Virus record (IMG/VR): IMGVR_UViG_3300020027_000005
Coordinates: 1 to 64,000 of that record
Reading direction: 5' to 3' (one strand)
DNA: 64,000 nucleotides
Source of the DNA: a virus
Part shown: positions 3,271-57,577 of the stretch, in pieces
Numbering within the stretch: position 1 is the first letter of the stretch
How the letters are laid out: each line of letters begins with the position of its first letter
Position numbers and translations under genes: made by a program
The notes under the pieces: generated by a model
Told to the model about the DNA's origin: nothing
What the model saw: the letters and a program-made list of their open reading frames with translations, nothing else
Databases searched by the model: none

Positions 3271-3483
3271 ATGGCTCAATCTACAGAACAGGCAACTACG
3301 CGAATCATCACTCGAGACGGGGTGGTGACTGCCACGATGTTCGACAAGGTCAGCGTGGATCAGATCGCCATGGTGCTCTTCAAGGGCTCGGCCGCCTCTT
3401 TCTTCCGTGGCTCGACGGACGGAACTCGTCTGGTGAGCCGAAGCATCAAGGACTTGCTGGTCTTCCCGTTCTCGGAGCTCTGA
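3271..3483 (+). CDS. Small tail-module protein, unknown
   Basis: A 70-residue protein beginning three bases after the tape-measure stop; its own stop overlaps the next ATG (TGATG), so it is translationally coupled to its neighbour. It has no signal peptide or membrane segment and looks like a compact alpha/beta fold. The ribosome binding site is weak. I do not recognise the family. Its place between the tape-measure candidate and the Dit-like protein suggests a tail completion or chaperone-like role, but that is only context. Confidence 0.6.
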   Translation: MAQSTEQATTRIITRDGVVTATMFDKVSVDQIAMVLFKGSAASFFRGSTDGTRLVSRSIKDLLVFPFSEL

Positions 3484-4562
3484 TGAGCATCATTCTTCTC
3501 GTCAAGGATCCGTTCGTGGAGGCCGAAGGTCGGTCCTTTACAGATCCGAAAGCCGAGCAATTCAACATCCGTCGACCCTTCTTCGGCATCTCGATCAAGG
3601 ATCCGAGGCATGCGTTTCTCTCCATCTACCAAGACGGAGGGAACGGGAACCTGGTCCCGATCAGCATGAAGGACAGCTCGGCGCCCGGAGGTTGGTCCAA
3701 CGCCAACCACAACTTCCTTCTGATGAACGTCACCGAGTCGAGGCAGGAGAAGGTCCAGATCATCGAAACCTTCGGGGACCACTTCGCCTTTTTCTACGGA
3801 GAAAAGCCGATCGTCCTTTCGGTTCAGGGAATTCTTCTGAACACCATGGACTTCAACTGGAAGAACGAGTGGTTCTACAACTACGAGAACTTCCTCCGTG
3901 GGACGAAGTGCGTCGAGAACCGGGCCCGTGTCTTTCTGGGCTACGACGACACGCTGGTCGAAGGCTACGTTCTCAACGGGCAGACGGCGAACAGTTCGGA
4001 GACTCCGTACTCGGTGCCCTTCTCGTTCTCGCTTCTGCTGGCGAAGCCTCCCCTCGACTTGTCCCCTGCAGCCGCAGATGAGATCCCCTCTGCTGGAGCG
4101 AACGAGTACGTCACCCAGGCTGAAGAGGCGAGGACCTACGTCGGGACGGCCTCTGGAGAGGTGGTCGAGTATATCGGCTCACTCAAAGGTCAGGACGGAA
4201 CAGAGGAGAATGCCCGTTACGCGGTGAATCCCCTGACCGGAGATTCTGAAATCGTGAGTCTCGGTGGACCTGGAGCGCCTGCTGGAGCTCCATGGCTTTC
4301 GGAAAGAGACCCGGCCGAAAACCAGTGGAAGACCGAAGACCAAGCCCTGGTCGCACTCTCGACGAACCTTCTCGCACAACAGGCTGGGACAGACGCAACT
4401 ACGGCCCGTCTCGCACAGAGGAGCAGTCCGAGTCCCCTCCTTACCAGGTCTGACGACTCCGAGGCACTCGGGTCAGTTCTGGGGGAAGGGACCTCCAGCG
4501 GTATGTTCGAGGGTCCTGACCCTACGAATTTCGAGGGCTTCATCAATTCCCTTTCAGAATGA
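3483..4562 (+). CDS. Tail/baseplate protein, Dit-like candidate
   Basis: A 359-residue protein. The first ~205 residues look like a beta-rich structural domain: a patch around residues 115-145 (ILLNTMDFNWKNEWFYNYE) followed by a 'GYDDTLVEGYVLNG' segment and a hydrophobic strand is typical of distal-tail or baseplate-hub adaptor proteins. The C-terminal ~150 residues are polar, Ser/Thr/Gly-rich and probably flexible. It starts on an ATG overlapping the previous stop and is followed 16 bases later by the hub-like protein. The assignment rests on remembered family patterns and gene order; a tail-tube initiator is an alternative. Confidence 0.45.
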   Translation: MSIILLVKDPFVEAEGRSFTDPKAEQFNIRRPFFGISIKDPRHAFLSIYQDGGNGNLVPISMKDSSAPGGWSNANHNFLLMNVTESRQEKVQIIETFGDHFAFFYGEKPIVLSVQGILLNTMDFNWKNEWFYNYENFLRGTKCVENRARVFLGYDDTLVEGYVLNGQTANSSETPYSVPFSFSLLLAKPPLDLSPAAADEIPSAGANEYVTQAEEARTYVGTASGEVVEYIGSLKGQDGTEENARYAVNPLTGDSEIVSLGGPGAPAGAPWLSERDPAENQWKTEDQALVALSTNLLAQQAGTDATTARLAQRSSPSPLLTRSDDSEALGSVLGEGTSSGMFEGPDPTNFEGFINSLSE

Positions 4563-4577: not shown

Positions 4578-6848
4578 ATGGCGATGATCGCGCACCGCTT
4601 GAACTTGCGGTGTCTCATCGACGGGATCGAAGTTCCCGTCATCGCAGCCAGGGCCACTTTCTCTGAAGGTGCTCCGGCCACGGCTGAAATCCAGCTGGTG
4701 GCGACGGACGAGGTCTACGACATCCTGCCTCGAGCGTTCGTGACGCTCTTTTTCTACGAGACCTATGACTTCGACCGGACCCCTTCGTCTTCTGTCGAGA
4801 TGCTCCGACTCCCGCCGAAGGACCTCCGTCGTTGGAAACTTCTGTTCTCTGGTGAGTACATCCAGATCTCGTTCCAGAAAGAGGCTGGTGGTCGGGCTTG
4901 CTCGATCGTGTGCGCCGACCTCACGAACTACTGGGACTTCATCAAGCAGTACTACATCAACTTCGCGAACGGAGGCATCGAGCTCTTCGAGAATGCCTTC
5001 CTTGGCGTGAAGAACGATCGCATCAAGAACTACGACGTGATCGGAAAGGACATGGCCTCGAACCTCTTCGTTTGGCTCACGAAGAGCAAGGGCCCGGACG
5101 GGAAGCCGAACATCTACCTCGGAGTCCAGCGAATCCTTCGAGAGATGTGGTTCGCCTCGAGCGATTTCTACGCAAAGGCGTTCAACAGAACTCGGGCAGG
5201 GGATCAGATTGTCGGAGTCCCCGGAGACCAGACAGCTGCGAAACTGTTCCAGCTGGAGTTCTTCAAGAAGTTCATCGAGAACCAGATCGGTGGCGGTGGA
5301 GACGAAGTCACAGCCAGAGGGATGGTTGAAGCGCTTCTCGGGAACGTCTTCCACACCTACGTTACCGTGCCCTGTCCCTTCTTCGACAGGACTGGGAAGG
5401 CTCGGGGATTCTCTCCGACTTCTGGCCAGGCCCAGGACGATGCCCTTCTCTCGGAGAACATCGACAGGAGCAACTCGTGGCCGGAATCGTCACTTAACTC
5501 TACCATCATCAAGCCCGACACGTGGTTCACGATGCCGCCAGCTTGCAACGTGGTTTTCCCGCACCAGTACACGAGTATTTCGTTTCAGCGGAACTTCCTG
5601 CAAGAGCCGACTCGGATGTTCTTGCGGACGAACTTGCTGTTCGGCGGGACGAACGACAAGTGGCTCACCGAGCGGTTCTACGCCCCGGACTTCGAGACCT
5701 TCAACCAGCAGCTCTACAAAGAGGGCGGCTACTACCGTCGGATGTCCTCGACCCTTCTGGAGCACGAAGAGTTCGTCGGCATCAATGCAGTTCAGGCCTG
5801 GACTTCGGACATGGGAGCCTACGCCCAGAAGGGGAAGCGTCGGGAGTACCTCGCCCGAGTGGCGGACTACCTGTTCTGGAAAATGAGGTTCGCCCCGCGG
5901 TCGGCGAACGTCTCTGGACCTTTCAACCCGAACATCGTTCCGGGGTACCCAGGTCTCGTCATCAACAATGTCTCCAGGCCGGGACAGGCGACGAAGCATT
6001 ACCTCGGGAACATCCAGACGGTCACCCATGTGATTTCCCAGGCCGAAGGCGGCTGGACGCATTTCACGATGGCGGGTGCCCACGTCCATGACGAGACGAT
6101 CGATTTCGACAAGAAGGGTCGGTCTCTAGAGGAGGTGGCGAATCGTGGAGCTGATGGCTTCATCGATGACCGGTACGATTCGACCAGGATTGGTCCCGAG
6201 GTCTACCAGACCCTTTTCGGGTGCGACAGCATCTTCGAGACCTACCTGACCACCGGAACGGGTGGAGATGATCCGCTCTCCCTCCGGCTGAGCGCTCTCC
6301 AAGCTGCAGGTGCGGGCGACACCATCCTCTCTGTGGAAGCGATTCACGGGCTGTACCAGACGGCGGTCCGGGAGAAGATGGACCTCAACGCCTTTTCGCA
6401 GTCCATCTCCTGGCGTCCGAAAGCCAACATGCTCGAGATGCTGGGAGTCCAGGTTCTTCAGGCTTCCGGAACAGGCGCTGTCGTGACGGACCTCATCGAC
6501 TTCAACAAGCTCAACGATGAGGATCCGGAACTGGTCGTCAATGACGGGTTCTTCGCCTCCTGCACAGATCCGGAAGCTTCAACGACTGTGGATGCGACTT
6601 TCGTGGCAGTGAAGTCGAGATCGGTCGGGGTCACGACGACGACTTCGATTCCGGAGATCTCGGAGAGTGTCGGAGACGCGGACGAAGAACGCATCATCCA
6701 GTCGGCCTCGACCGTGACCTCTACGACCTACAAGACGGTGACCGAGAAGTCGACTGGGAACTATGAGCTCGCTGCCCATCTCGAAGCCCGTCGGGCTAAG
6801 GTTCTGGCGTACACTGAGAGCCTCAAATACCGGGGTCTTCGGGGATGA
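4578..6848 (+). CDS. Baseplate hub-like structural protein
   Basis: A 756-residue protein. The N-terminus (residues 5-55) has alternating strands in the style of phage hub proteins of the gpD/gp27 class. The middle is rich in aromatic residues and Asn, as in rigid virion proteins, and the C-terminal ~100 residues are Ser/Thr/Val-rich with a helical tail. The start at 4578 has a GGAG seven bases upstream. The stop overlaps the next start (ATGA), tying it to the helicase gene. The hub role is inferred from position after the tape-measure and Dit-like genes and from the N-terminal pattern. No peptidoglycan hydrolase motif was identified. Confidence 0.45.
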   Translation: MAMIAHRLNLRCLIDGIEVPVIAARATFSEGAPATAEIQLVATDEVYDILPRAFVTLFFYETYDFDRTPSSSVEMLRLPPKDLRRWKLLFSGEYIQISFQKEAGGRACSIVCADLTNYWDFIKQYYINFANGGIELFENAFLGVKNDRIKNYDVIGKDMASNLFVWLTKSKGPDGKPNIYLGVQRILREMWFASSDFYAKAFNRTRAGDQIVGVPGDQTAAKLFQLEFFKKFIENQIGGGGDEVTARGMVEALLGNVFHTYVTVPCPFFDRTGKARGFSPTSGQAQDDALLSENIDRSNSWPESSLNSTIIKPDTWFTMPPACNVVFPHQYTSISFQRNFLQEPTRMFLRTNLLFGGTNDKWLTERFYAPDFETFNQQLYKEGGYYRRMSSTLLEHEEFVGINAVQAWTSDMGAYAQKGKRREYLARVADYLFWKMRFAPRSANVSGPFNPNIVPGYPGLVINNVSRPGQATKHYLGNIQTVTHVISQAEGGWTHFTMAGAHVHDETIDFDKKGRSLEEVANRGADGFIDDRYDSTRIGPEVYQTLFGCDSIFETYLTTGTGGDDPLSLRLSALQAAGAGDTILSVEAIHGLYQTAVREKMDLNAFSQSISWRPKANMLEMLGVQVLQASGTGAVVTDLIDFNKLNDEDPELVVNDGFFASCTDPEASTTVDATFVAVKSRSVGVTTTTSIPEISESVGDADEERIIQSASTVTSTTYKTVTEKSTGNYELAAHLEARRAKVLAYTESLKYRGLRG

Positions 6849-8614
6849 GCCGTTGGATGGAGAAGCTGTCTGCCTCGATCCCCGTTGGGGAGAGACAGAC
6901 AATTTCGCCTCCTCCAGACCTTCCGCATATTCGACAGTTGATTCGGGAACTGGCGAAAACTGCGGAGACTGGTGGGCACTGGAGAAAGCTCGATCCGGGA
7001 CAGGAGGGTCACGGCCAGGGCGGAAGTCAGGAGGTGGGCCGAACCTGGGTTCATCGGGACAACACGTTGCCCACGGCCGAGCTCAAGCCGCACCAGATGG
7101 ATTTTCAGAAAGCTGTCACAGACATGGAAGATACGGGCGGGATTATCGCTGCCCATGGAACCGGAACCGGGAAGACCTTCAGCGCCATCAATGCTTTCGA
7201 GAAGCTGAAGGGTCTGGGTAGGGCTGAACGGGCTCTCGTCATTACCCCTTCAGGGTTGCGAAACAACTTCCTGACCAAGGGCATTCAGAGGTTCACGACC
7301 TCGAAGGGTCAGATCATCTCTAGGCCTACCGAACTCTCTCCGGACACGGAGTACGCCATCGTCTCTTACGATGCGTACCGGAGGCGTCCGCAGGAGTTCA
7401 TCAAGGCCTTCAAGCCCGACACCATCATCGCTGATGAGGTTCATCGGGCCTCAAACCCAGATTCGAAGACCTTTCAGGCGATGCAAGAGGGGAGACGTGA
7501 AGTAGACCGCTTCATGGGTTTGACTGCTTCCATCACCCAGAACAAGCCGGATGAGATCGTCCCTCTACTGGAACTCACGACGGGAGGGAAATCGGACATC
7601 CCCTCCAAAAAAAGCTTCAGAAAACACCACATCTCCACGACCCAGAAGCCTGGAAAAGGCATCTTCGGAGGGAAGACTTACGAGGAGAACCTGATTCAGC
7701 GGGTCCTTCTGAAGTCCACGGTCGGAGCGAACATCCACTACGTCGAAGACTTGGATGCTTCCGAGAAGCCCCAGAAGATCGTCGAGTCGATCCAGGTTCC
7801 GATGTCCGGAGAGCAGATCGACCTTTATCGAATGTCGATGAAGGGGGTCGATCCTGTCATCGTGAAGAAGATCAAGGCTGGAGAACCTGTCTCACAGAAG
7901 CAGGCCATGGAGTTGTTCACCCGACTCCTGCGAGCTCGACAGGTCTCGAACAGCCTGAATTCCATCGACCCGTCAATGGCTCCGGAAGAAGCTGCTCGAC
8001 GGACTCCGAAGATCAAGCGCATTCTGGATGATGCGGTCGACCACATCGGGAACACGTCCGACGGCCAGGTCATCCTCTACACGAACCTGGTCCACGGCGG
8101 AGTGGACGTTCTCGCAGCCGGTCTAAAGGATCGAGGGATTCCATTCGGCGTCTTCGCCGGGAAGGGAGTCAAAGGGATGACCGAGGAAGTTCGGCAGGCA
8201 GCTGTCGAAGACTACCTTGCAGGCCGAAATCGGGCGATCATCATCACGGGGGCGGGGGCTGAAGGTTTGTCTCTCGGGAACACGACGATGGTCCAGCTCG
8301 TGGATGGCCATTACAATCCCGAGCGAATCGCACAGGCCGAGGCTCGCGGAATCCGTGCAGGTGGGCTTTCGCAGCGGCCTATCGAGGAACGGAAGGTTCA
8401 GGTCAAGAGGTACGTCTCTTCTCTTCCGAAGAGCTTCTGGCAGACCATCACTTTCCAGCCTCCAGAGAAGGGCGTGGAAGAGTGGGTCTACCTCACCGCC
8501 GAGCGGAAGAATCGGCTGAACAGACAGCTTCGTGATGTTCTCGCAGAGCGAACCGCTCACGAGAAGAAACAACGAGATTCCGTGTTGTACCGTACGTTCG
8601 GAGGCGGCCCATGA
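6845..8614 (+). CDS. SNF2-like superfamily 2 helicase/translocase
   Basis: A 589-residue DEAD/H-type ATPase. Walker A is GTGTGKT at residues 105-111, Walker B is DEVH at 197-200, and motif III reads GLTAS near 220-230. The second RecA fold holds ITGAGAEGLSLGNTT and a motif VI-like segment, QAEARGIRAG. This order is SNF2-like (dsDNA translocase) rather than replicative. About 85 polar residues precede the ATPase core. It is embedded by ATGA overlaps between a hub-like protein and a zinc-ribbon protein, inside the tail operon and far from the replication block. It may therefore be made late or packaged. P1 DarB is a known virion-borne helicase, but homology to it is not claimed. Confidence 0.85.
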   Translation: MSRWMEKLSASIPVGERQTISPPPDLPHIRQLIRELAKTAETGGHWRKLDPGQEGHGQGGSQEVGRTWVHRDNTLPTAELKPHQMDFQKAVTDMEDTGGIIAAHGTGTGKTFSAINAFEKLKGLGRAERALVITPSGLRNNFLTKGIQRFTTSKGQIISRPTELSPDTEYAIVSYDAYRRRPQEFIKAFKPDTIIADEVHRASNPDSKTFQAMQEGRREVDRFMGLTASITQNKPDEIVPLLELTTGGKSDIPSKKSFRKHHISTTQKPGKGIFGGKTYEENLIQRVLLKSTVGANIHYVEDLDASEKPQKIVESIQVPMSGEQIDLYRMSMKGVDPVIVKKIKAGEPVSQKQAMELFTRLLRARQVSNSLNSIDPSMAPEEAARRTPKIKRILDDAVDHIGNTSDGQVILYTNLVHGGVDVLAAGLKDRGIPFGVFAGKGVKGMTEEVRQAAVEDYLAGRNRAIIITGAGAEGLSLGNTTMVQLVDGHYNPERIAQAEARGIRAGGLSQRPIEERKVQVKRYVSSLPKSFWQTITFQPPEKGVEEWVYLTAERKNRLNRQLRDVLAERTAHEKKQRDSVLYRTFGGGP

Positions 8615-9955: not shown

Positions 9956-11620
9956 GTGTCCGTCTTCCTGACGGCCTTCTCTCTGGAGCTCATGAAGAGC
10001 GCCGAGGAGAAGAAAGAACAGAGGCCCAGCTACCTTCACTCGATGGTGGCTGGGATTCCTGTTCTCACAGGTCAGGCACTCTCGGACATTCCAGAAGGCG
10101 CGATCGAGGGGACTATCGAGCACTCGATCCGCAACAAGAAGTTCACTCCACGGGTGGACGTTGGAGCTCTTCGGTTCGGAAGTCGAATGGCTGCTGGACT
10201 TGGGACGACTCCGGTTTTCTTGAGCGGAATGCACGACATCACCAATGCGAAGTCCAAGAAGGACGAGCACGTGGGGATGGCGAAACTTGTTGCGGCCGGT
10301 GGTGCTTATGCAGGGGCTCGGGGAGCTATCGAAAGCAAGTTCTCCAAGGACATCGCGAAGAATCCGAAGTCCTGGAGATACGTCGCAGCTCGGACAGGGA
10401 TGGGCGTTGGCGGAGCCGCTCTCACCGGTTTGACTGTCGGACGTGCACTCCGACACGAGAAGAAAGAGCCGACCTTCCGAAAGAAGTACGTCGAGCCAGC
10501 CCTTGTCGGTGCAGGTCTTTCCTCCGGAAAGGCACTCATCGAGGAAGTGGCTCTCGAAGGAGGGAAGGCACTTCGAACTGCAGAAGGTCGCCGAGGTGTT
10601 GTCGGAAAGGCGGTTGGAAAGGCAGGAGCCGGAGCTGTCGGAACTCTCCTCCTCTCCGAGATCATGAGAAGAGCCCTCAAGCCGAAGTCTGGGAAGGAGA
10701 AGAAGTCCGCAGCCTCCATGGGTCCGACTGCAGAGCTGAACTCCCAGACCGATGACTGGGCCAAAAAGGCGAGCACAGAAGAGCTTCTGAAGTTCTACAA
10801 GGAACTCGAACTACGAGGCGGAGAACGGTCTCCTTCAGCCCGAGCGGCCTTCTACCCACTTCATGACGAACTCTCGAAGAGAGGAGTGTCTCTTCCGAAA
10901 CTCAAGGAGCGGGAAAACACAACCGGCTTGGTTCGAGCCCCGAATCGCTCGAGCCTTGTGGCACCCGCCGCTCTGCTCCTCACTCCGACTCTCGCCTACT
11001 CCGCTCTCACCACTCTCCCTTTGACCGACCGAGATCGGGTGCTCACGGACGCACTCGATCGGACCTACGTGCAGGGGAAGATCAACGTCGTGAGACACAG
11101 CAACGACGGAATTCTTCTGAGGCGTGGAGACGGCTTCGCAATTCCGGATACTGAAACTATCGGAGTTGCGGCGGAAACTGATCCAGCCGAATTTGCACAC
11201 GAGATTGGGCACGTTCGTCGTGGAGATATCCGAGGCAGGACCATCGGACACGCTGGAACGGTCGTGATCAGCAGAATCTCGAATGCTGCAGTCGCGTTCC
11301 TGAGTCTCGGAATCTTGGCCACGACTTTCGATCGCTCTTTCGCAACCAAGGAAGAGCTGGAGTCTAAGAGCCGGGCGGTGGCTGCAATCGGAGTCGTCGG
11401 AGCTGCGCTCTCTTCCCCGGTCCTGGCGGAAGAGGCGATGGCCAGTGTCAAGGCAACGAAGTATCTCTCGTCGGCTGGGGCTTCGACTTCTGAAATCGCA
11501 GGGAAAGTGGTCAAGAATCTCGGACCTGCTTTCGCTACATACGCAGCACCTGTCGCTCTTCCTTTCTTGATTGCTCGGATGCTGAAGAAGCGTTCACAGG
11601 CAGAGCCGGAAAAGGCCTAG
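9956..11620 (+). CDS. Membrane-type protein with HEIGH zinc-metalloprotease motif
   Basis: A 554-residue protein starting on GTG with GGAGG upstream. It has an HExxH motif, HEIGH at residues 415-419, in the context AEFAHEIGHVRRGD, like gluzincin or M48-type peptidases. Hydrophobic, Gly/Ala-rich segments occur near 140-155, 334-352, 430-455, 470-485 and 525-540, so it may be membrane-active. The N-terminus carries FSLELMKSA (residues 8-16), related to motifs in the next two proteins. It sits with two other Gly-zipper proteins upstream of the sigma gene. A role in ejection or virion maturation is inference; activity depends on an unverified third zinc ligand. Confidence 0.6.
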   Translation: MSVFLTAFSLELMKSAEEKKEQRPSYLHSMVAGIPVLTGQALSDIPEGAIEGTIEHSIRNKKFTPRVDVGALRFGSRMAAGLGTTPVFLSGMHDITNAKSKKDEHVGMAKLVAAGGAYAGARGAIESKFSKDIAKNPKSWRYVAARTGMGVGGAALTGLTVGRALRHEKKEPTFRKKYVEPALVGAGLSSGKALIEEVALEGGKALRTAEGRRGVVGKAVGKAGAGAVGTLLLSEIMRRALKPKSGKEKKSAASMGPTAELNSQTDDWAKKASTEELLKFYKELELRGGERSPSARAAFYPLHDELSKRGVSLPKLKERENTTGLVRAPNRSSLVAPAALLLTPTLAYSALTTLPLTDRDRVLTDALDRTYVQGKINVVRHSNDGILLRRGDGFAIPDTETIGVAAETDPAEFAHEIGHVRRGDIRGRTIGHAGTVVISRISNAAVAFLSLGILATTFDRSFATKEELESKSRAVAAIGVVGAALSSPVLAEEAMASVKATKYLSSAGASTSEIAGKVVKNLGPAFATYAAPVALPFLIARMLKKRSQAEPEKA

Positions 11621-11647: not shown

Positions 11648-12964
11648 ATGACGATCAAGGCCGGTGCCCGCAGGTTCGACATCGAAGCGGTCGTCCAGTT
11701 GGCGGGGACTGCGAGAAACCTCGACACCGTTGTGCACTTCTTCGACGAAGAGCTGGAGAAAATCGCTGCGGGTGTTGGTGCTGCTGCCGGTGAGGGGGTG
11801 GAGAAGCTGCTCCAAGCTCTTAGAGGACGAGGTGCTGCTCGTGCAGCTGCGAAGGTGAAAACTCCGAATCCTTCAAACAGAGCTGCTCTCGAACAGGCAC
11901 TCGACAAGGTTCGGCAGCAGGGTTCGACCTCGGCCTACAACGCGACCCCGGCCGGTCACATCGAACGACCCACCGGAGCTACTCCCACAGGTTTCCAGAC
12001 TCCCATGATGGCCCCTCCGAGAGAGGGTCCTCCGGCTCGGTCTGCGCTTCCTACCATGGCTCCGGATACGACCCAGAGAATCTCCCCTCCCCTGGGAGCA
12101 TCTCCGGCACTTTCGACTCCTGCACCTTCGTTGCGAGCCCCGGCTCCTGCACCGGCCCCGCAACCTGCGTCGGCAGTTCATGCAACGCCGCCTCCGACTC
12201 CCCCGCCTGTTGTTCCACCTCCGGTAGCGCCGGCTCCGGCCCCCGGTCGTGTTGCGACAATCTCCCAGACGCCTGTTGCGCCTCGACCGGCTCCGGTGGC
12301 CTCTGCAAGTGCTGCCGGAACCCAGGGCCCGGCCCAGGTTGCAGTTCCGAAAACCCCTCCTCCTTCTCCGACCCCCGGCCCGTCGACTCTGGCTCCTCCG
12401 ACCCCTTCGATTCGACCACCCGAAGGTGGACTCCCCCGTCCGACAAATCCGCAAGCGGTCCCTCCCCCGGCCCCACCGCCATTGCCCCCTCCCGCCCCGA
12501 CGGGACCCGCGTACGCTCCTGCGCCAACGTCGGGTCCCGTTCACGGACCGGCTCCTCTCGGAGCTACTGCAACTCCGGCCGCTACCGGAGCGATGGCGGA
12601 TCTCAAGACCGAAGCGCAGGCACTCCTCAGTGGAAACAGGGTGGGAGAGCAGCGCGTCCTCAACACTTCAGGTGGCTCAGTCGAACAAGCTGGAAATGCC
12701 ACCCCTTCGAAGAAGGCCCCGAAAGGTCCCTCTACACAAGGGCGTCCGGCTCCTCCAGTGCCAAAACCCGTTCCGACCACCGCGGCACCAGGAACTCCGT
12801 CTCCCTTCATCGACCAGGCGAAGGCCCAGGCGATGATGGGACAGAAGTGGTTTCAGGATCTCCCTCCCGAAAGGAAGCAGCAGATTCTGATGGCAGCAGG
12901 GATGGCTGGAACTGGTGCACTGGGTCTCGGAGCAGGCGTGGTCGGCTCAAGCCTCATGAACTAG
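11648..12964 (+). CDS. Proline-rich linker protein with C-terminal hydrophobic segment
   Basis: A 438-residue protein. Near residues 29-41 it has FFDEELEKIAAG. Residues ~110-320 are an extreme Pro/Ala/Thr/Ser low-complexity region, probably an extended disordered linker. Residues ~405-438 hold a glycine-zipper-like hydrophobic segment (MAGTGALGLGAGVVGSSL). GGAG lies upstream of the ATG. The architecture, a short helical head, a long flexible arm and a membrane-type tail, suits a virion protein that spans a distance or contacts a membrane. No known family was recognised. Neighbours on both sides share the head motif and the small-residue hydrophobic segments. Confidence 0.6.
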   Translation: MTIKAGARRFDIEAVVQLAGTARNLDTVVHFFDEELEKIAAGVGAAAGEGVEKLLQALRGRGAARAAAKVKTPNPSNRAALEQALDKVRQQGSTSAYNATPAGHIERPTGATPTGFQTPMMAPPREGPPARSALPTMAPDTTQRISPPLGASPALSTPAPSLRAPAPAPAPQPASAVHATPPPTPPPVVPPPVAPAPAPGRVATISQTPVAPRPAPVASASAAGTQGPAQVAVPKTPPPSPTPGPSTLAPPTPSIRPPEGGLPRPTNPQAVPPPAPPPLPPPAPTGPAYAPAPTSGPVHGPAPLGATATPAATGAMADLKTEAQALLSGNRVGEQRVLNTSGGSVEQAGNATPSKKAPKGPSTQGRPAPPVPKPVPTTAAPGTPSPFIDQAKAQAMMGQKWFQDLPPERKQQILMAAGMAGTGALGLGAGVVGSSLMN

Positions 12965-12973
12965 GGAGCGGAG

Positions 12974-13495
12974 ATGAACGAATTCGAACTGCACGGCCGG
13001 GTTGTCGCACAGGCCTTCTTCCTCGAGCTCGAGAAGATTGCGATGGCCGATCCGATGGACATCGTTCACGGTCTTCGAGCAAACCAGGCTCTCCGGAGTG
13101 CAGCCTCTCCGAGTCTTGTGCAGAAGCTCAAGCCGGGAACGGGGAGCTTCTTCGGGGCCGTGAAGGACAAGGTCCGTCTTCACTTGAAGGGACGGAATGT
13201 TCGGAAGAGTGCGATCAAGGACCTCGATAGCGCTTCCAAGTACACACCGGGGGCGGATGACATCGAGGACAACGCCAACCTCGCCAGGGCTGCTCGAGGT
13301 CGGGAAGCCGAACATGAACTTCACGGGAAGCCGGGTGAGTCGAGCTTCTTCGGCGGAAAGAAGAAGAAGGAGCCGGTGAGGGGTCACCGGGCCAGGCTTC
13401 GGGACCTCGCCTTCGGTGCGGGAATCGGTGGAGCAGGCGTGATCGGCACCAGCATGTACCTGAAAGGTGGACAGGCTGAGCCCGGCTACGAGTAA
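12974..13495 (+). CDS. Small ELEKIA-box protein with C-terminal hydrophobic segment
   Basis: A 173-residue protein. The N-terminus reads FELHGRVVAQ then AFFLELEKIA (residues ~14-23), almost the same box as in the preceding protein. The middle is basic. EHELHG near residue 112 also occurs in the protein encoded at 17905-18636. The C-terminus has a Gly/Ala-rich hydrophobic stretch at ~145-165. A strong GGAG lies upstream, and its stop overlaps the sigma-factor start (TAATG), so the two are co-translated. It may be a virion or membrane-associated partner; the function is unknown. Confidence 0.6.
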   Translation: MNEFELHGRVVAQAFFLELEKIAMADPMDIVHGLRANQALRSAASPSLVQKLKPGTGSFFGAVKDKVRLHLKGRNVRKSAIKDLDSASKYTPGADDIEDNANLARAARGREAEHELHGKPGESSFFGGKKKKEPVRGHRARLRDLAFGAGIGGAGVIGTSMYLKGGQAEPGYE

Positions 13496-14214
13496 TGGAA
13501 AAGGCCGAAAAGAAGACGAGGGCGGCCCAAGAGCTCGAACTCTGGCGCGACTGGAAGGCCAACCCTTCTGACGCCACGCTCGAGCCCTTGATGGCGTCCA
13601 TGCAAAACGTTGTTCAACAGCGGGTGAACCAGTTTCGTGGAGCTCCCGTTCCACCTGCCGCTGTTCAGGGTTTTGCAAACGTCCAGCTCAAAAAGGCCTT
13701 CCATACCTACAGCCCGGACAAGGGAGCTTCTCTCGCGACCCATGCGAACTGGTACTTGAAGAAGGTCCAGACCTTCGTCATCAAGCACCAGAACATCGGG
13801 AAGATTCCAGACCAGCGAGCGAACAACATCGCCGAGTACCGAGCTGCGAAAGAGGAACTCCGAGAGACGCTGGGGATGGAGCCAGACGCTCTCTCCTTGT
13901 CGGAACATCTCGGCTGGAGTCAGCGAGAGGTCGAGCGGATGGAGGCAGAGCAGAGAAAGGACCTCATCGCTTCCAAGAACCCAGAAGCTGACCAGCTCGC
14001 CGAAACCTACTCGAACCGAGAGAGGGAAGTTCTACGGTACATCCACTACGACCTGACCCCGGATGAGCGCCTGGTCTTCGAGTACACTCTGGGGTTGTAC
14101 GGAAAGCCGCAGATCTCGGCCACCGAGATTTCGAGAAGGATGAGTATCTCTCTTCCGAAGGTCAGCCGAATTCGAGCGAAGATCGACAAGAAGCTTCGTG
14201 CCCGGGGTGTGTAG
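13495..14214 (+). CDS. Sigma-70-family RNA polymerase sigma factor
   Basis: A 239-residue protein with group-3-like sigma architecture. Region 2 lies at about residues 30-105, with the core-binding/melting pattern LKKAFHTYSPDKGASLATHA and NWYLKKVQ. A region 3-like helical segment is at 115-155 (ALSLSEHLGWSQREVERME). Region 4 lies at 187-235, starting TPDERLVFEY and ending in a helix-turn-helix (ATEISRRMSISLPKVSRIRA). There is no region 1.1. It presumably directs a core RNA polymerase to phage promoters; the obvious partner is the fused beta-beta' enzyme at 57610. Its place inside the virion operon suggests late expression or packaging. That link is inference. Confidence 0.85.
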   Translation: MEKAEKKTRAAQELELWRDWKANPSDATLEPLMASMQNVVQQRVNQFRGAPVPPAAVQGFANVQLKKAFHTYSPDKGASLATHANWYLKKVQTFVIKHQNIGKIPDQRANNIAEYRAAKEELRETLGMEPDALSLSEHLGWSQREVERMEAEQRKDLIASKNPEADQLAETYSNREREVLRYIHYDLTPDERLVFEYTLGLYGKPQISATEISRRMSISLPKVSRIRAKIDKKLRARGV

Positions 14215-14426: not shown

Positions 14427-15017
14427 ATGGAGTCCGTTACTCTCGTCTTTCTCGATTCCATGATCGGAAACCAGGTTGTCCCCAACCTGTTGATCACGGT
14501 CTATGAAGAAGACGGGATTAACCTCGTTACCTATGGACGAACTGGGCCCGACGGTACGGTAGAGCTGCTCGCGCCTGTGGGTAACTACGTCGTCCGAACC
14601 TTCAAGATCGGAGTGACTCCGACAGAAGAGACCTTGACCGTCGAAATCGGGGGAGGTTCTTTCACCTTCTACGTCTCGACCATCCTGGTGGCCCCTCCTC
14701 CCTCTCCGAGGGTTTGTCGGCTCTTCTCGAACTTCGTGTCGTTGAACGGACGGCCTTGGGTTCAGTTCAGACTTCAGGTCTCCAACATGTTCGACCCGAA
14801 GGCGGCAGAGGGTCTCGCGGTCGTCGAGAACACGTTGACCCTCGAGACTGACGCCGCAGGCCATGTGGAGTTCGACGTCGTTCGAGGGGCCAGAATCCGG
14901 GTCACGTTCATCACCACCCCCTTCAGCCGGGAGATCGTGGTTCCGGATAAGGCGGTCGAGAACCTTATGACTGCGCTGGGGGAGTCTACGGACAACTTCC
15001 GTGTTGTTCGGAGATAG
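14427..15017 (+). CDS. Two-domain beta-sandwich virion protein
   Basis: A 196-residue protein. Residues 1-90 resemble a carboxypeptidase-regulatory-like or PEGA-type beta sandwich (GRTGPDGTVELLAPVGNYVV). Residues ~95-190 form a second beta domain with TDAAGHVEFDVVRGA near 150. The second domain appears related to one in the protein encoded at 18633-19307 (TDKDGYVQFDLLQGA). An AGGA precedes the ATG. Such small beta domains usually decorate tails or fibres and mediate weak surface contacts. The exact virion location is unknown. Confidence 0.55.
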   Translation: MESVTLVFLDSMIGNQVVPNLLITVYEEDGINLVTYGRTGPDGTVELLAPVGNYVVRTFKIGVTPTEETLTVEIGGGSFTFYVSTILVAPPPSPRVCRLFSNFVSLNGRPWVQFRLQVSNMFDPKAAEGLAVVENTLTLETDAAGHVEFDVVRGARIRVTFITTPFSREIVVPDKAVENLMTALGESTDNFRVVRR

Positions 15018-22300: not shown

Positions 22301-23314
22301 ACGTCCTCGCTTCGTCTGGCTGTGGCGGAAGTCCTTCTCGATTTCGGTTCAAACACTCAGCCGATCGCTGCTGGAGTGGGTGCCGACCTGACGTTCGACG
22401 AGGACGGAGATGGGCTTACGGACACCATCACCGTCAGCACCGCCACCTTCGTGACTGACGGAGTGGAGTTCGGGCACCGAGTAGACGTGGTGTATCCAGG
22501 CCCGACTTCTCGGCGTTCATACGTCATTGAGGTCGTGAGCGAAACGGTACTTAAAGTGGACCCTGCCGTACCGGTGTCTGTCACTCCCTTGGCTTGGGCC
22601 ATCGTTCGATCGAGCGTCTCGAACGCCCTCGACGATGTGCTGCAGCTTCGGACACAGATGGAAGATCTCCAGGAGATCGTAAATCTCTACGTTGTCGAAC
22701 AGAACGCCACGGTCTTGAACGCCCTGAACATGTTGAAGAAGCATCGGATGGACCGGGCCATCGACTTGTTCTACGACGGGCAACTCGCAGAGTTCGTGGC
22801 CATGGAGTCCACGGACAGCAGCTACGCGAGTCAGGCTCGCAGCTCCATCCAGACCGTCGGAGCTGCGACGACTCCATCCGAGGACGTTGTTTCCAGTTCC
22901 TCGCAGCAGGTGAGTTCCGGAAACAACCTTTCTGGAGTGGATCCGGTCACAGGGAAGGCGGCTCCGAGTAGCACCTTTGCTTCGGCTACCCAGAGCCAGG
23001 CCATTGGCACAGACGAAGTCGAGACTCGAATCGCCTTGTCGAAGGCTGTGACCGAACTCGTGGCCGATGAACAGATTCGATCGATGCTCACGCTCAGCCT
23101 GGATGAAGCACGAAACAGAGGAATCTACGAGCTGAACGGGGAGATTCAAAGTGGTGTAATCTCCGATCAGGACTCGACCCTTCCCTGGCTCGATAAGACA
23201 GGGTCCGTGAAAGACAGGCTCATCGAGAAGGCGCAGGCTGCCATGGATGCCATCCAGTACATGCTGGACCATCCAGATGAATTCGACGACGTGGCTTCAG
23301 AGGACTCCGGATGA
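19331..23314 (+). CDS. Giant modular virion protein with seven GD-box repeats
   Basis: A 1327-residue protein, the longest in the virion block. Residues 1-300 are helical. Residues ~310-1100 contain about seven degenerate copies of a beta module with a V-x-x-GD turn, a Y-T-I-x-S-V strand and a closing L-x-V-D-P segment; NNVVPGDILEVQGV near 598 is a clear copy. The C-terminal ~230 residues are again helical and Ser/Gln-rich. GGAGGAG lies upstream of the ATG. Its place just before the gp25/baseplate-J region suggests a baseplate or tail-surface assembly protein. No known family name can be given with confidence. Confidence 0.55.
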   Translation: MSISRDDVREAVERYIPRTANFARSADLGELNREEVFDRLLHIVLSALLVDPDAVFFSVYLSTQRLLQDIQVALDALIDLDSIDQLRGISPLPPIRLEDLSKLEDAQSSLIGMSAALVDNLFGINQFNAFSEDITSFLVESVVPNVLNGGNNEKSSAAIRGSLQKVADAWDAVLERRAQIPTAVEEYENLDLRVQVSSTVISSIREKIIELRTTLPTLATTEHGKQSEQILVDLAAAVASLRVIALSPTPFGQQILGPLDDGYTDAEYLLTEGTATIEPLRPLLKGDDGKLFFDSVLVSSAGQTVTDGDDFTAEFTDPDVSDFTTVVSAGQFLTLVNSGERFQLNAVVAAALTLDGETRHLAASPQRYVVTETPPGTFFRSLETDFWDEYTGGRTASTVLLSGTNGSWVRIDKVVGSDGRNIKAQGTAGVARPFKAEGGFGLQDGGGTAFLDVTTPAAFLSDGVLPGDHLLVDGANATGNPYTVLSLVAEEALFVVETFPGPGDFSSDWIVEEADADHLFVVDEDVFERGVVVGDVIFFLNVGPILTAEITEIRGVNLLLTDFFFDENQAGIEWEIRYSDLLFISDTANFLSNNVVPGDILEVQGVEDYTIVSVDSQTQLTVDPEIDSFFVGKNFLVYPDPTITTKFVQTDVDFEAHGIGAFFEGVQVILNAETGDLNVVRLDPDDPVQALRVETPVSVDAGPLNWTLRAGDETDLFNDPSGPFANYEAGDIIVYRPGTVDERRVGIQEVLGPQSVRLAGTLPQGEVDIPYAVISVCKGGVQLIVSGRRHSVISVVDRHTLQVQPPLALTIGKDVEFLIVRSGSTPLAYHLVDEVTAQTFGVQGFPASIVGSDFELMSGQQVKGRVTARVDANDDTRFESFNITAQLRIGQRKAAYRLRTLLSNTTNKFKTDSSSPLPAAGDILTVWGQARTFEILEVALVGSDIVLTIDGLLPARLEEQSFVVVRGGSRNHGRFLLLQQKLATLAQDDDTSSLRLAVAEVLLDFGSNTQPIAAGVGADLTFDEDGDGLTDTITVSTATFVTDGVEFGHRVDVVYPGPTSRRSYVIEVVSETVLKVDPAVPVSVTPLAWAIVRSSVSNALDDVLQLRTQMEDLQEIVNLYVVEQNATVLNALNMLKKHRMDRAIDLFYDGQLAEFVAMESTDSSYASQARSSIQTVGAATTPSEDVVSSSSQQVSSGNNLSGVDPVTGKAAPSSTFASATQSQAIGTDEVETRIALSKAVTELVADEQIRSMLTLSLDEARNRGIYELNGEIQSGVISDQDSTLPWLDKTGSVKDRLIEKAQAAMDAIQYMLDHPDEFDDVASEDSG
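20260..22620 (+). repeat. Tandem GD-box beta-module repeats within the giant virion gene
   Basis: Seven protein-level repeats are visible. Anchors are AGQFLTLVNSG, LPGDHLLVDG, VVGDVIFFLN, VPGDILEVQG, EAGDIIVYRP, AAGDILTVWG and EFGHRVDVVY. Each is followed by a strand pair and a short closing V-x-R or Y-P-D segment. Spacing is about 75-150 residues. DNA identity between copies is low, so these are old duplications. Single or double copies also occur in the genes at 15026, 23983, 27487 and 29175. Confidence 0.5.
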
Positions 23315-23973
23315 TCGATGTGCAGTTCATCTCTCTTGTGGATGAGCTTCAGGTTCTGGCCGCCGTAGAGGTGCCGGATGCAGAACCTCGAGCCATTCGA
23401 CTGCAGTCGAGGGGCGGTTTCTTCGACGCACAACGGGTTCTCATTAATGACTTTGGAGTCGACACCTTTACGGTGGTGAACGACAACTTCCTCCTGGTGA
23501 ATCCCCCGAATCAGTTCTCTACAATCACCGTGGCTCAGATGGACTTCGCGGTGGTGTCGGGTTCCTACACGGGCGGTCGATCTGCCCGTCTGGTCTTCGG
23601 TCCCACGAAGACTGTTCGGAAAGTCGAAGGACTTCAGAAGCTGGTCCAGCAGGTGGTGAAGACCTTCTTGTCGAACGTCGGGTCGAACAAGTTCGCACGC
23701 AACGACGGGGGAGATCTTCTCCGGTCCCTCGGGGCCACGCTAAGCCCCGAGGGCCGTGCAAAAGTGACGGCCTCCGTTTCGCAAGCGGTTTCTCGAACGG
23801 AGGAACAGGTTCGAGCAGCGCAGCTTCGTGTACGGGGCCTGCCGACCGTGGAGAGGCTGCTCTCGCTCCAGCTCGACGGCGTCGTCTACCTCGCGGACCA
23901 GTTCAAGGTAGAAGCCAAGGTCAGGCTCGTGACGTTCGCTGGAAAGGCGATCGACATTCCACTGACTTTGTAA
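23311..23973 (+). CDS. Baseplate-region protein, possible wedge component
   Basis: A 220-residue protein coupled by ATGA to the giant modular protein and followed closely by the baseplate J-like gene. Residues 1-85 are beta-rich. Residues ~100-165 are helical, with NKFARNDGGDLLRSLG, a pattern seen in phage baseplate proteins just before gpJ homologues. The C-terminus returns to beta strands (VEAKVRLVTFAGKAIDIPL). The order fits the gp25/W position, but the sequence is not a textbook gp25 and the call stays tentative. Confidence 0.45.
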   Translation: MIDVQFISLVDELQVLAAVEVPDAEPRAIRLQSRGGFFDAQRVLINDFGVDTFTVVNDNFLLVNPPNQFSTITVAQMDFAVVSGSYTGGRSARLVFGPTKTVRKVEGLQKLVQQVVKTFLSNVGSNKFARNDGGDLLRSLGATLSPEGRAKVTASVSQAVSRTEEQVRAAQLRVRGLPTVERLLSLQLDGVVYLADQFKVEAKVRLVTFAGKAIDIPLTL

Positions 23974-23982: not shown

Positions 23983-26586
23983 ATGGCAACGGACGCAACT
24001 CTTCAGGAGCTGGCCCTCGAGCTGATGGCTGACTTCGACTCGACCATCGACACGTCGGAAGGCTCTCCATTTCGCACGAAGTTCCTGACCCCCTTCCTCA
24101 CCCGGGTGGGTGGGAATCCTCTCGATGGAGACCTGGAGACCTTCCTCGTTTCGCGTCTCGAGACCGAGATTCCGAGCATCGATGTGTCCCCGCTTGCGGG
24201 TATGCGAGACCTCGTCATCCGAGCGTGTACGGCCATCCTGGCTCCGTTCCGTCGGGAGATCTCGGCTCTCAAGCTGACCCAGAGTCTCTCGAAGTACCAG
24301 AGCATGACGAGGGCCGAGCTCAACGCCCTCCTTGCAAACTTCTTCACCGAGCTTCGGGAAGGGTCGGTCTCTGTGGGCATCGTCCGGATGCTCTTTCCCT
24401 CTCCCCGGTCGGTGACGGTGACTCCGCTCACCCAGTTCTCGACGGGGACGGGTCTGAACTTCTTCCCACAGACCGCCCAGTCGCTGACCTCGGTGCAGAT
24501 GTCCTTCAACCAAGACGGAAGCCTGTTCTTCATGGACATCCTCGTCCAGGCGGAGAGTCCAGGAGAGGCCTACAACCTGGAGCCTGACTCCATCACTTCG
24601 GTGATCGGAATCAACGGGGTCACCAGGGTCACGAATCTCGGGAAATTCGAGGACGGTCTCTCGGAAGAGACGAAGGACGAGGGCGTCGCCCGGACTCAGA
24701 ACTCCATTACAATCCGGAACCTGATCACCGACCGCGGCGTAAAGTTCGTTCTTCCCGAGAACTTCCCTGCGGTCGAAACCCTCCAGGTGATCGGGCATGG
24801 TGATCCTGAAATGGACCGGGACGTGGTCTACGGGCCTGTCGCCATTTCCGACATTCCAGGAGGTATCACCGGAAAGGACGACCCCGGTCTCGGCGGAGGG
24901 GAGCAGATCCACATCGGAGGTAAGACCGACATCTACGTCTACCAGGCCGTTCCGGATCAGGATGACGTAGATATCGAAGACCTCACCGACAAGGGGTTCC
25001 GGATCTTCGCAGGAGTCCATGGCTATACAGATGCCGGTTCTCCCACGACAACGTTCAAGGATGATTTCGGGTTCTTCGACAAGCGAGGAGTTGCAGCAGG
25101 TGATTTCCTTCTCCTCGACAACCTCGTCAACGAGGTCGTGACTGTCGGAACATCAAACCTCGAGGTGATCGATCCTCTCGACGCTTCGCAATTCGGAAAG
25201 GTCTACGAGATCATCCGGAAGGTTCCAGGCTTCCTGACCGTCCCCCTCTACGACCTGGTTGCAGAGGACGCTGATGGGAACCCGGTCATCGATGCGGACG
25301 ACGACCCGATCTGTCCGATCCCCGGTTCCACTACCAAGGTCCCCCTCGTCCTCTCTTCGGTCGAGGTCAAGAAGTCCACAGTCGACTGGTCGAGCATCGC
25401 CAGGTCGAATGTGAAGCTTCCGCTCCTGCGGGTGGTGTCTGTCGAGCGGTTGGACCCGATCACCCTCGAAGGTTCGGCCCTCTTCATTCCCATGAGAGAC
25501 CCGATCTTGGCTGTGGTCATTGGCGACGATTTCGCAGGTGGAACCGTCAGTACGAAAGCCCAGGGAACCATCAGGGTCTACTTCCGAGATCCGGTGAACG
25601 CCTGGGTAACAAGAGCGGACACCCGGTTCCTGAGCGCGGAGACTTTCAGCTTCCGTCCCATCACCGAGGTGTCGGGCACGGACCACACCAGCACAGCCTC
25701 TGGAACTTCGGGAGGGAACACCATTACCCTTACGAATGGGAACTTCTCGGCAGCGGGTCTCGACGTCTTCCGTCCTGGATACCGCATCGAGATTCCGAGT
25801 GGAGCCGGTGCCGGGACCTACACCGTTGTCTCCGGGGTGTTTTCCACTCCGAATACCATTCTCACCATTCGAGAAGATCTCCCGGCTACCTTCTCCTTGG
25901 CGAACTGGGGTGCGCACGTTGGCCGACTCGAGTCTACGGACCAGCTCGACGAGACCCTGGGGCTCTCGTACCTGGACGTGGAAGTCGAAGCGATGGTCAA
26001 CGGCACGAACATGAACTTGGCTGAAGACACTCCGTTCCCAGACATCGTCTCTCTGGATTCGGAGGGCTGGTCTCTCGAAACGACGAAGAACGTCACCTCT
26101 TTCTCGACTCGAGAGCTTCCCTACATCCAGTTCACGGAGTGGGTGAGTGACGATCTGTTCCTCGGCGATCCGCTCGACGCACCCGCAGTCCGTGTCTCCT
26201 ACGAACATGCCAGCACTCTGAAGGATCTGCAGACTTTCGCGGATGCTGCAGCAAACCGAATCGTCGCCGAGGAAGTTCTGATTCGGCACTACCTCCCGGC
26301 CTACGTCCGGACAGTTGCAGTCATTGGTGGAATCTCGGTGGAGGACAGCAAGGAGAGAGTCGTCGAGTTCATCAACGCTCTCGATCCACTCGTTGAACTC
26401 CAGGTCTCGGACGTGATCGGCGACCTCACCAAGGCGGGTGTCACGAGCGTCGAGCTTCCTTTGTTCCTCGTGTCTTTGGCCCAGGACTCGTTTCGAAACT
26501 GGACCGGACTCATCAGCCAGAACACTCTCGGATCCAACAGGATTCAACACTTCATCGCGGACGAGTCCGCAATCGTCATCTCCTAG
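23983..26586 (+). CDS. Baseplate J-like protein
   Basis: An 867-residue protein. The N-terminal 120 residues (helical, with MRDLVIRACTAILAPFRREI) and the following beta region with GEAYNLEPDSITSV match the pattern of baseplate J/gp47/T4 gp6-type wedge proteins. Two GD-box modules (KRGVAAGDFLLLDN and a later FRPGYRIEIPSG segment) lie in the middle. The C-terminal ~130 residues contain the helix and beta element typical of J proteins (AEEVLIRHYLPAYVRTV). It forms part of the baseplate wedge ring and supports a contractile tail. Its 3' end overlaps a convergent minus-strand gene by 11 bases. Confidence 0.7.
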   Translation: MATDATLQELALELMADFDSTIDTSEGSPFRTKFLTPFLTRVGGNPLDGDLETFLVSRLETEIPSIDVSPLAGMRDLVIRACTAILAPFRREISALKLTQSLSKYQSMTRAELNALLANFFTELREGSVSVGIVRMLFPSPRSVTVTPLTQFSTGTGLNFFPQTAQSLTSVQMSFNQDGSLFFMDILVQAESPGEAYNLEPDSITSVIGINGVTRVTNLGKFEDGLSEETKDEGVARTQNSITIRNLITDRGVKFVLPENFPAVETLQVIGHGDPEMDRDVVYGPVAISDIPGGITGKDDPGLGGGEQIHIGGKTDIYVYQAVPDQDDVDIEDLTDKGFRIFAGVHGYTDAGSPTTTFKDDFGFFDKRGVAAGDFLLLDNLVNEVVTVGTSNLEVIDPLDASQFGKVYEIIRKVPGFLTVPLYDLVAEDADGNPVIDADDDPICPIPGSTTKVPLVLSSVEVKKSTVDWSSIARSNVKLPLLRVVSVERLDPITLEGSALFIPMRDPILAVVIGDDFAGGTVSTKAQGTIRVYFRDPVNAWVTRADTRFLSAETFSFRPITEVSGTDHTSTASGTSGGNTITLTNGNFSAAGLDVFRPGYRIEIPSGAGAGTYTVVSGVFSTPNTILTIREDLPATFSLANWGAHVGRLESTDQLDETLGLSYLDVEVEAMVNGTNMNLAEDTPFPDIVSLDSEGWSLETTKNVTSFSTRELPYIQFTEWVSDDLFLGDPLDAPAVRVSYEHASTLKDLQTFADAAANRIVAEEVLIRHYLPAYVRTVAVIGGISVEDSKERVVEFINALDPLVELQVSDVIGDLTKAGVTSVELPLFLVSLAQDSFRNWTGLISQNTLGSNRIQHFIADESAIVIS

Positions 26587-45318: not shown

Positions 45319-45362
45319 GGTAGGCGGAAGGGTGAACTTCCCTTTCCGCCTACCTTATGCGC
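45319..45362 (-). promoter_or_regulatory. Conserved GCGCATAAGGTAG element plus 14-bp inverted repeat
   Basis: On the minus strand GCGCATAAGGTAG (45350-45362) runs straight into an inverted repeat: arms 45319-45332 and 45340-45354 pair with one bulged T around a seven-base loop. The 13-nt element is identical to that at 53533-53545. It lies between the stop of the zinc-rich protein and the start of the 369-residue gene. A promoter with operator or a 5' RNA hairpin is possible. No T-run follows the hairpin in either direction. Confidence 0.5.
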
Positions 45363-49738: not shown

Positions 49739-49799
49739 GTTCGGCTAGCTTATGCCGTCAATCTCTTCAGGGTCAACGGCGAGAGATGGCTAGCCGAAC
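49739..49799 (-). promoter_or_regulatory. Candidate promoter within an 11-bp inverted repeat
   Basis: On the minus strand TTGACC (49771-49776) and CATAAG (49749-49754) are 16 bases apart, a fair sigma-70-like pair. CATAAG belongs to the recurring element seen at 45354, 53537 and 57569. The whole region is bracketed by GTTCGGCTAGC at 49739-49749 and its complement at 49789-49799, the latter overlapping the stop of the upstream gene. This may be a regulated promoter for the helicase, VWA and primase transcript. Confidence 0.45.
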
Positions 49800-53532: not shown

Positions 53533-53562
53533 CTACCTTATGCGCCCGAAAATCACTTTCGG
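53533..53562. promoter_or_regulatory. Conserved element in the divergent region 53491-53575
   Basis: CTACCTTATGCGC at 53533-53545 is identical over 13 bases to the element at 45350-45362. A small hairpin (CCGAAA at 53546-53551, TTTCGG at 53557-53562) adjoins it. The region separates the leftward replication block from the rightward gene at 53576, so it could serve either direction. No clear -35 hexamer was found. Confidence 0.5.
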
Positions 53563-54664: not shown

Positions 54665-55333
54665 GTGCCTGAGCCTCTTGTTCGCAGAGCCGGTCTTCTC
54701 GAAGACGAACAGGGTCTGCACCTCATCACTCTGAGTGTGCTTCTGCTCGATCTACTCGGGCCGGAGTACTTGTTCTGGACTTCTGAGGCGCTCCGAGAAG
54801 AGCTCCAGGAGAGGTACGGGAAAATCGGCGTCGTGACCTGGGAGCGGGTTCAGGCACTCCGAATTCTCCACGTCCATGACGCCTACTGGCAGGAGTGGGA
54901 AGTCTTCGAGAAGGTCACGGCTGCCATCTGTGGAGAGCCTCCGATCTTCAGCCTGGTTCAGCCACAGGAAGCAGAGGAAGTGTTCATCTCTCTGTCGACG
55001 GCTTCGCGAATCGACCAGCATGACTTCGACGAAGATGTTCGGAGCTACATGGTGGCGGCGTGCCTGAACGACGGGCTCTGGTATTTCGAAGAGCCCGTCG
55101 CAGCGGTCGGAAGTTCGGAGCTCGTGGAGTTGGACACTCGACAGGGGATTCAGAGACCATTCGGGCTCATCTCGGCAGAACTCGAAAAGTCCAACAAGTT
55201 CCGTCCGGAGTCAGACGACCCTGTGCTCACCCAAGTGAATCGGGTTCTAGAGGTGCGGCAGGCGCTTCGACTGTACAATGAGGCGGTCGATAGGCAGCTG
55301 CTCCAGCTCCCACAACTGCTGAAGGGTGTTTGA
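54665..55333 (+). CDS. Unknown protein coupled to portal
   Basis: A 222-residue protein with a GTG start three bases after the previous stop and AGGG upstream. It is mainly helical and acidic; residues 20-40 are hydrophobic (LHLITLSVLLLDLLGPEYLF) but read as a buried helix rather than a membrane segment. The stop overlaps the portal ATG (TGATG). A head-assembly or portal-associated role is inferred from coupling only. Confidence 0.55.
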   Translation: MPEPLVRRAGLLEDEQGLHLITLSVLLLDLLGPEYLFWTSEALREELQERYGKIGVVTWERVQALRILHVHDAYWQEWEVFEKVTAAICGEPPIFSLVQPQEAEEVFISLSTASRIDQHDFDEDVRSYMVAACLNDGLWYFEEPVAAVGSSELVELDTRQGIQRPFGLISAELEKSNKFRPESDDPVLTQVNRVLEVRQALRLYNEAVDRQLLQLPQLLKGV

Positions 55334-57283: not shown

Positions 57284-57367
57284 CTACTCTTCCTCTTCAG
57301 CCCTTGCGGTAGCGAGGGACAGCAGGAAGCCGTTCAACACACCTAGGAGAACACACCACCACCACAT
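57284..57367 (-). CDS. 27-residue hydrophobic peptide
   Basis: A tiny ORF whose ATG overlaps the stop of the upstream minus-strand gene (TGATG). The product starts MWWWCVLLGVLNGFLLSLA and ends in four Glu. It reads as a membrane peptide or signal-like segment. Its coupling and clean hydrophobic pattern argue for a real gene, but short ORFs arise by chance and no family is known. Confidence 0.35.
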   Translation of the reverse strand: MWWWCVLLGVLNGFLLSLATARAEEEE

Positions 57368-57552
57368 CAGGCGGGGTCCGGAGTGCTGTCCTCGCTCTTT
57401 CCACGATCGTCAGCGTCATCATCGACGCTCCAGAGCGACTCCCGCAGTCTTTGGTCGACCACGGACTGCCCTTGAGTAGTCTCCTCCTCTTCCTGTTCCC
57501 GCTTCTTCTTCCTCTTCTCTTCCTCGGTCATCGATTCTCCAGAAGCCGACAT
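57367..57552 (-). CDS. Small highly charged protein
   Basis: A 61-residue ORF. ATG 57552 has GGAG six bases upstream; an upstream ATG at 57567 is also in frame. The product is a run of Glu, Lys and Arg (MTEEEKRKKKREQEEEE) with an acidic, Asp-rich C-terminus, probably a helix and disordered tail. The conserved CTTATGCGC element at 57569-57577 lies just upstream. Together with the hydrophobic peptide it forms a two-gene leftward unit between portal and RNA polymerase. The function is unknown. Confidence 0.45.
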   Translation of the reverse strand: MSASGESMTEEEKRKKKREQEEEETTQGQSVVDQRLRESLWSVDDDADDRGKSEDSTPDPA

Positions 57553-57568: not shown

Positions 57569-57577
57569 CTTATGCGC
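57569..57577. promoter_or_regulatory. Conserved CTTATGCGC element before the RNA polymerase gene
   Basis: This is the fourth intergenic copy of the element (minus strand GCGCATAAG). It lies 17 bases upstream of the charged minus-strand ORF and 33 bases upstream of the polymerase ATG, so it could act either way. Together with 45354, 49749 and 53537 it marks longer intergenic regions around the replication block. AGGATGG at 57600-57606 is the polymerase ribosome binding site. Confidence 0.5.

Follow-up and report, generated by a model that had tools for sequence, protein, structure and literature searches.

A sigma-70-family factor encoded in the virion module of a large phage is a probable partner of the phage's own single-chain RNA polymerase

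Virion RNA polymerases (RNAPs) are already known from phiKZ, AR9, N4, crAss-like phages, and P23-45, and the phage sigma factors T4 gp55 and SPO1 gp28 act on the host core after being made during infection. The jumbo phages that encode an RNAP are without sigma homologs, and those that encode a sigma factor are without an RNAP (PMC7598289, PMC7824862, PMC13282480); no sigma factor is present in any group 1 phage (PMC7824862). The phiKZ/AR9-type phages carry a multisubunit-type RNAP in their virions for early transcription (PMC7598289, PMC13282480) and an SNF2 helicase linked to the RNAP genes, with no sigma homolog known (PMC7824862). The TMP-fused virion RNAP of Thermus phage P23-45 and gp66 of crAss-like phage phi14:2 are pre-early virion RNAPs with a phage-specific promoter motif; they are single-chain enzymes, belong to a different clade, and are joined to large virion proteins, and no sigma partner is described for them in the available portion of that study (PMC10770324).

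The window analyzed here, 64,000 nucleotides of a 76,482-base IMG/VR virus fragment (IMGVR_UViG_3300020027_000005, positions 1 to 64,000), encodes both a sigma-70-family factor and a phage RNAP catalytic core (Table 1). Like the phiKZ/AR9-type phages, it encodes a multisubunit-type RNAP and an SNF2-type helicase, for which presence in virions is known from the relative Arash and an early role would follow by comparison. It differs from them in that the RNAP consists of one or two chains close to the cellular enzymes rather than about five polypeptides, and in having a true sigma-70-family partner. It may also lack a second, non-virion RNAP set: with the window RNAP as query, one RNAP locus per genome was found in the 76-kb fragment and in its relatives. 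With T4 gp55 and SPO1 gp28, the window protein shares its sigma-family identity and, presumably, the reading of a phage-specific −10-like element, but those factors use the host core, whereas the window factor is linked to a phage RNAP and has a homolog in the particles of a relative. The closest described system is Salmonella phage Arash, with the same sigma, RNAP, and helicase families in the same gene order and the proteins in its virions, although its RNAP is encoded by two genes and it has a second sigma factor, gp196; the Arash paper names these proteins without analyzing sigma-RNAP pairing or promoters (PMC10585845).

Table 1. Coordinates of the features discussed, numbered from the first base of the window.
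Feature	Position	Strand	Basis or remark
Homolog of Arash structural gp6	3483..4562	+	
Weak homolog of Arash gp8 cell-wall hydrolase/structural protein	4578..6848	+	E 5e-5
SNF2-type helicase	6845..8614	+	Homolog of virion-detected Arash gp217
554-aa box protein, AFSLELMKSA near N-terminus	9956..11620	+	Weak HtpX-like metalloprotease stretch
438-aa Pro-rich protein, FFDEELEKIA box, Gly-rich C-terminus	11648..12964	+	
173-aa ELEKIA-box protein, stop overlapping sigma start	12974..13495	+	TAATG; homolog at same place in G059
Sigma-70-family factor, 239 aa, Arash gp10 homolog	13495..14214	+	Profile libraries, homolog alignment, predicted fold
gp25-like baseplate wedge protein, Arash gp12 homolog	23311..23973	+	
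Baseplate J/wedge protein, Arash gp13 homolog	23983..26586	+	
GCATAAG promoter-like element	45354..45360	-	Upstream of 44194-45303(-)
GCATAAG promoter-like element	49749..49755	-	Upstream of DnaB-like helicase gene 48310-49665(-)
GCATAAG promoter-like element	53537..53543	-	Upstream of first gene of minus-strand replication block
Portal protein, directly upstream of RNAP gene	55330..57246	+	
GCATAAG, GAAA 18 bases upstream	57569..57575	-	61-codon minus-strand ORF starts 16 bases downstream (57552)
Single-chain β-β′ RNA polymerase, 2056 aa	57610..63780	+	Profile matches, alignment

The initial annotation had read 13495-14214, which is exactly the span of an ATG-initiated ORF, as a sigma factor with regions 2, 3, and 4, and profile libraries, alignment with RpoS, and the predicted fold agree. 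The protein matches the PHROG sigma factor profile (1.2e-10), NCBIfam sigma families (E down to 1.6e-10), and RpoS/RpoD chains in the PDB (E down to 2e-4). Regions 2, 3, and 4 are present in order, with individual Pfam scores under the curated cut-offs (Sigma70_r3, 3e-5; Sigma70_r4, 0.004); region 2 is under the Pfam threshold when taken alone, yet aligns with RpoS across 2.2-3.0. An AlphaFold2 model (mean pLDDT 89.7, pTM 0.52) resembles SigA, SigB, and sigma-S and matches solved sigma factors end to end, the top Foldseek match being sigma-S (E 3e-9) and the top VIA match S. aureus SigA (Z 14.9; 222 residues superposed with an rmsd of 15.6, a deviation that goes with the uncertain domain placement indicated by the pTM). 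When the protein was aligned with 36 homologs, the strongest conservation among the 37 sequences fell mainly in the promoter-contacting regions 2.2-3.0, e.g., P74, L80, T82, R93, Q99, N100, and E106. Homologs are widespread among large myovirus-like phages, being encoded at 43 IMG/VR loci in a scan with four sigmas as queries, a number that places the observation well beyond chance; the window and Arash proteins are only 26% identical. An Rfam search of the window gave no matches.

The window RNAP joins β and β′ in one chain, contains NADFDGD, and is close to the full-length cellular subunits, matching bacterial β from about model residue 313 on and β′ over nearly its whole length. The β′ clamp coiled-coil region (about 1173-1230) is kept and aligns with the cyanobacterial and E. 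coli enzymes; we take these clamp helices to be the docking site of sigma region 2. The gene lies 43.4 kb from the sigma gene, in accord with the distance of about 44 kb first given. In Arash the RNAP (130093-134670, 139441-141261) is split after the catalytic part of β′, with other genes between; it is split likewise in G027, G029, G033, G034, and others, and is a single chain in other relatives.

Gene order around the sigma factor is shared with Arash, in which gp6, gp8, gp10 (sigma), gp12, and gp13 correspond to the window genes starting at 3483, 4578, 13495, 23311, and 23983. Tail-hub genes lie on one side of the sigma gene and baseplate-wedge genes on the other, and at locus L001 it is flanked by a 719-aa tail-hub-like gene and by baseplate genes; Pfam GPW_gp25 was too insensitive to serve as a neighborhood marker across records. 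The portal gene precedes the RNAP gene in the window, and likewise in Arash and in 14/14 genomes with a portal detected in the RNAP flank, at a spacing of 44-961 bases. Both genes therefore reside in virion modules. The neighbors, first described as membrane-type virion proteins, are baseplate and other virion-module proteins, but not membrane proteins as such. Extra genes occur between the sigma and baseplate wedge genes (14427-15017, 17087-17908, 18633-19307), some of them with Ig-like or carboxypeptidase-regulatory-like sequence as recognized by eye. The SNF2-type helicase gene is in the sigma cluster in the window but adjoins the RNAP in Arash.

Published mass spectrometry of Arash virions detected sigma gp10 (24 unique peptides), RNAP gp206 and gp216 (128 and 40), and helicase gp217 (38) among 116 proteins in particles from one sucrose gradient, for which the authors allow carry-over (PMC10585845). 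We re-ranked 114 of the listed proteins by unique peptides divided by protein length; spectral counts were not the main measure, since some proteins had near-complete coverage yet two unique peptides. The sigma factor ranked first, with 10.3 unique peptides per 100 aa, ahead of the major capsid protein (9.8, rank 2), RNAP β (8.4, rank 5), the helicase (8.1, rank 8), RNAP β′ (6.6, rank 14), and the portal (5.5). Metabolic enzymes gave 0.2-2.9 per 100 aa, and primase, ligase, UDG, ribonucleotide reductase, and like enzymes 0.2-1.4. The second annotated Arash sigma factor, gp196, is missing from the virion protein table and thus provides an internal control. The proposal that sigma and RNAP are loaded into the virion is accordingly supported by homologous proteins in a relative; by analogy with these Arash measurements, we infer that the window phage packages its own.

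Unbiased 8-mer counts in upstream regions placed GGTATAAG, TATAAGAT, or GGGATAAG on top in G003, G009, and G010, and an independent count in Arash upstream regions gave 10 occurrences of GGTATAAG against 0.12 expected. A genome-wide count for Arash put 30 copies of GGTATAAG on the minus (non-structural) strand against a single plus-strand copy, and a reversed control word occurred five times; 22/31 sites are no more than 130 nt upstream of genes, and the sole plus-strand site is 12 nt before gp9, the gene preceding sigma. At the Arash sites the word lengthens to GGTATAAGTAAnGTGTAA, and an A/T-rich patch precedes it by 14-20 nt; when relatives are pooled, G.AAA precedes the element by about 18-22 nt. 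G054, a close relative, has GCATAAGGaCTTGGAG as its form of the word (14 minus, 1 plus). GGTATAAG was considered as a universal element and rejected: the window phage lacks it and has GCATAAG in its place, and Vibrio phage D69 shows no enrichment of it, from which it appears that the element varies between lineages. GCATAAG occurs nine times on the minus strand and never on the plus strand of the window phage, five of these sites preceding a minus-strand gene by 130 nt or less (P about 1e-4); in the window there are 7 against 1.26 expected, a number reached in 0/100 shuffles. These window-phage counts are small, and the motif was picked out post hoc. No enrichment was seen for a control word of similar composition, and canonical TATAAT had no upstream enrichment in any tested genome. 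A NATAAG core is common to phages that differ widely in base composition, and in Arash, several relatives, and the window phage the element is almost confined to the non-structural strand. No second sigma factor was found in the window's fragment or its nearest relatives with a sigma HMM, Arash gp196, or Pfam Sigma70_r2, and for this reason the window sigma may be the one that reads GCATAAG. A small, highly charged ORF (57367-57552, minus strand) lies between portal and RNAP, just after the GAAA-N18-GCATAAG element.

We consider it probable that the phage packages a sigma-RNAP holoenzyme that is delivered with the DNA for early transcription. The sigma factor would be made late, alongside the baseplate proteins, and packaged together with the single-chain β-β′ RNAP and probably the SNF2 helicase, and the three would enter the cell together with the DNA. 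There, as promoter-specificity subunit of the phage-encoded holoenzyme, it would dock on the RNAP clamp coiled coil and steer the enzyme to NATAAG-core promoters (GCATAAG in the window phage) upstream of non-structural genes. A packaged holoenzyme acting at phage promoters would permit early transcription without need for host RNAP. It is unlikely that the sigma factor instead works with the phage RNAP late in infection and is found in particles through carry-over or passive association with RNAP, as its place within the late structural block and the many enzymes in the Arash preparation could indicate. Carry-over would not readily account for a unique-peptide density above that of portal and tail proteins while replication enzymes sit near the floor, nor for the absence of the other Arash sigma from the particle list, and Arash structural genes are without the element except for the one site upstream of the gp9-sigma genes.

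Sigma and RNAP also occur together. Among sigma-selected records of at least 115 kb, a fused RNAP was found in 21/21, and among RNAP-selected records of at least 115 kb a sigma factor was found in 17/17, counts that are not fully independent because the records include near-duplicates. An RNAP was present in one of three sigma-selected records of 109-112 kb, with shorter fragments mixed, and a sigma factor in one of three RNAP-selected records of 102-113 kb and in 0/10 below 95 kb; missing partners thus track fragment length, which a large distance between the genes would explain. Arash and Vibrio phages D69, D181, and D148 were the entries of the phage database that combined the best matches to sigma with the strongest to RNAP. 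A mirror-tree comparison of sigma and RNAP divergence gave r 0.71 (28 genomes); in the 14 genomes with a portal sequence the sigma-RNAP correlation was 0.86 and the sigma-portal correlation 0.55, with a partial r of 0.80 given portal. That sigma divergence tracks RNAP favors a functional partnership over mutual independence of the genes, although lineage history also contributes. Co-occurrence, correlated divergence, the clamp region, and the phage-specific promoter-like element together support the phage RNAP as the likely partner of the sigma factor; of the phage holoenzyme first proposed, the partnership is supported and a physical complex would be predicted.

These data bear on an improbable scheme, in which the virion sigma hijacks host core RNAP to serve early promoters of the phage and the phage RNAP acts later. 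The sigma factor is recognizably bacterial-type, and RNAP-less jumbo phages are thought to pair such sigmas with the host core (PMC7598289, PMC7824862). Against this, no record of at least 115 kb has the sigma without a phage RNAP, the two proteins co-diverge, the sigma-docking region is kept in the phage RNAP, and the NATAAG core is shared despite very different base compositions. A non-transcriptional, sigma-derived structural component of the baseplate would fit the fixed place between hub and wedge genes and the abundance in Arash particles, but is very improbable given that every sigma domain is retained, that conservation centers on the promoter-contacting regions, and that the protein is tied to RNAP.

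As the initial annotation stated, the sigma gene is coupled to that of an ELEKIA-box protein: the TAA of the upstream ORF shares one base with the sigma ATG. This 173-aa protein bears AFFLELEKIA and one Gly-rich hydrophobic C-terminal stretch, for which the term hydrophobic is apt only in part. In five genomes, an N-terminal F..EL.KIA motif was found in 34 proteins against 2.6 in shuffles (about 13-fold; 23 in the first 60 residues), the motif having been seeded in part from the same genomes. Strong hits are on the structural strand, many adjoining sigma, portal, RNAP, and capsid genes. The motif recurs on virion-module proteins (window 9956-11620, 11648-12964, and 12974-13495; G003, G007, G009, G010, G059). 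In the window phage and G059 it is on the protein directly upstream of sigma, in L007 and L008 it is on sigma itself, and the G007 helicase also bears it; it is degenerate in other relatives and absent from Arash. The peptide is possibly a capsid-loading tag, by a hypothetical likeness to the T4 capsid-targeting sequence as a mark for cargo. We also considered the box as a known prohead-protease site, for which nothing testable gave support.

A second sigma factor is present in Arash, D69, and several other phages. This more canonical factor is encoded outside the virion module (Arash OQ632216.1, 120656-121693; also G014, G020, G027, G031, G033, and others), which suggests sigma switching on the single phage RNAP; with one RNAP locus per genome, gp196 may, speculatively, redirect the same core later. 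More tentatively, and with the balance somewhat against it, the family as a whole would package a full bacterial-type initiation machine (single-chain core, true sigma, and SNF2 helicase), with one RNAP and sigma switching in place of two RNAPs, and with cargo marked by F..EL.KIA for head loading.

We found no description of a virion-packaged sigma factor with a phage RNAP in the literature searched, most subscription journals and preprints lying outside it; as far as we found, a packaged true-sigma holoenzyme is undescribed, the virion RNAP itself being already known. A widespread family in which sigma and RNAP are obligately paired, and apparently share the virion, breaks the reviewed division that sets RNAP-bearing phages without sigma apart from sigma-bearing phages without RNAP. 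It bears on the question of how virion RNAPs without a sigma factor choose their promoters, and Arash offers a cultured model in which the virion holoenzyme, the switching of sigma factors, and the loading of cargo are open to direct tests.
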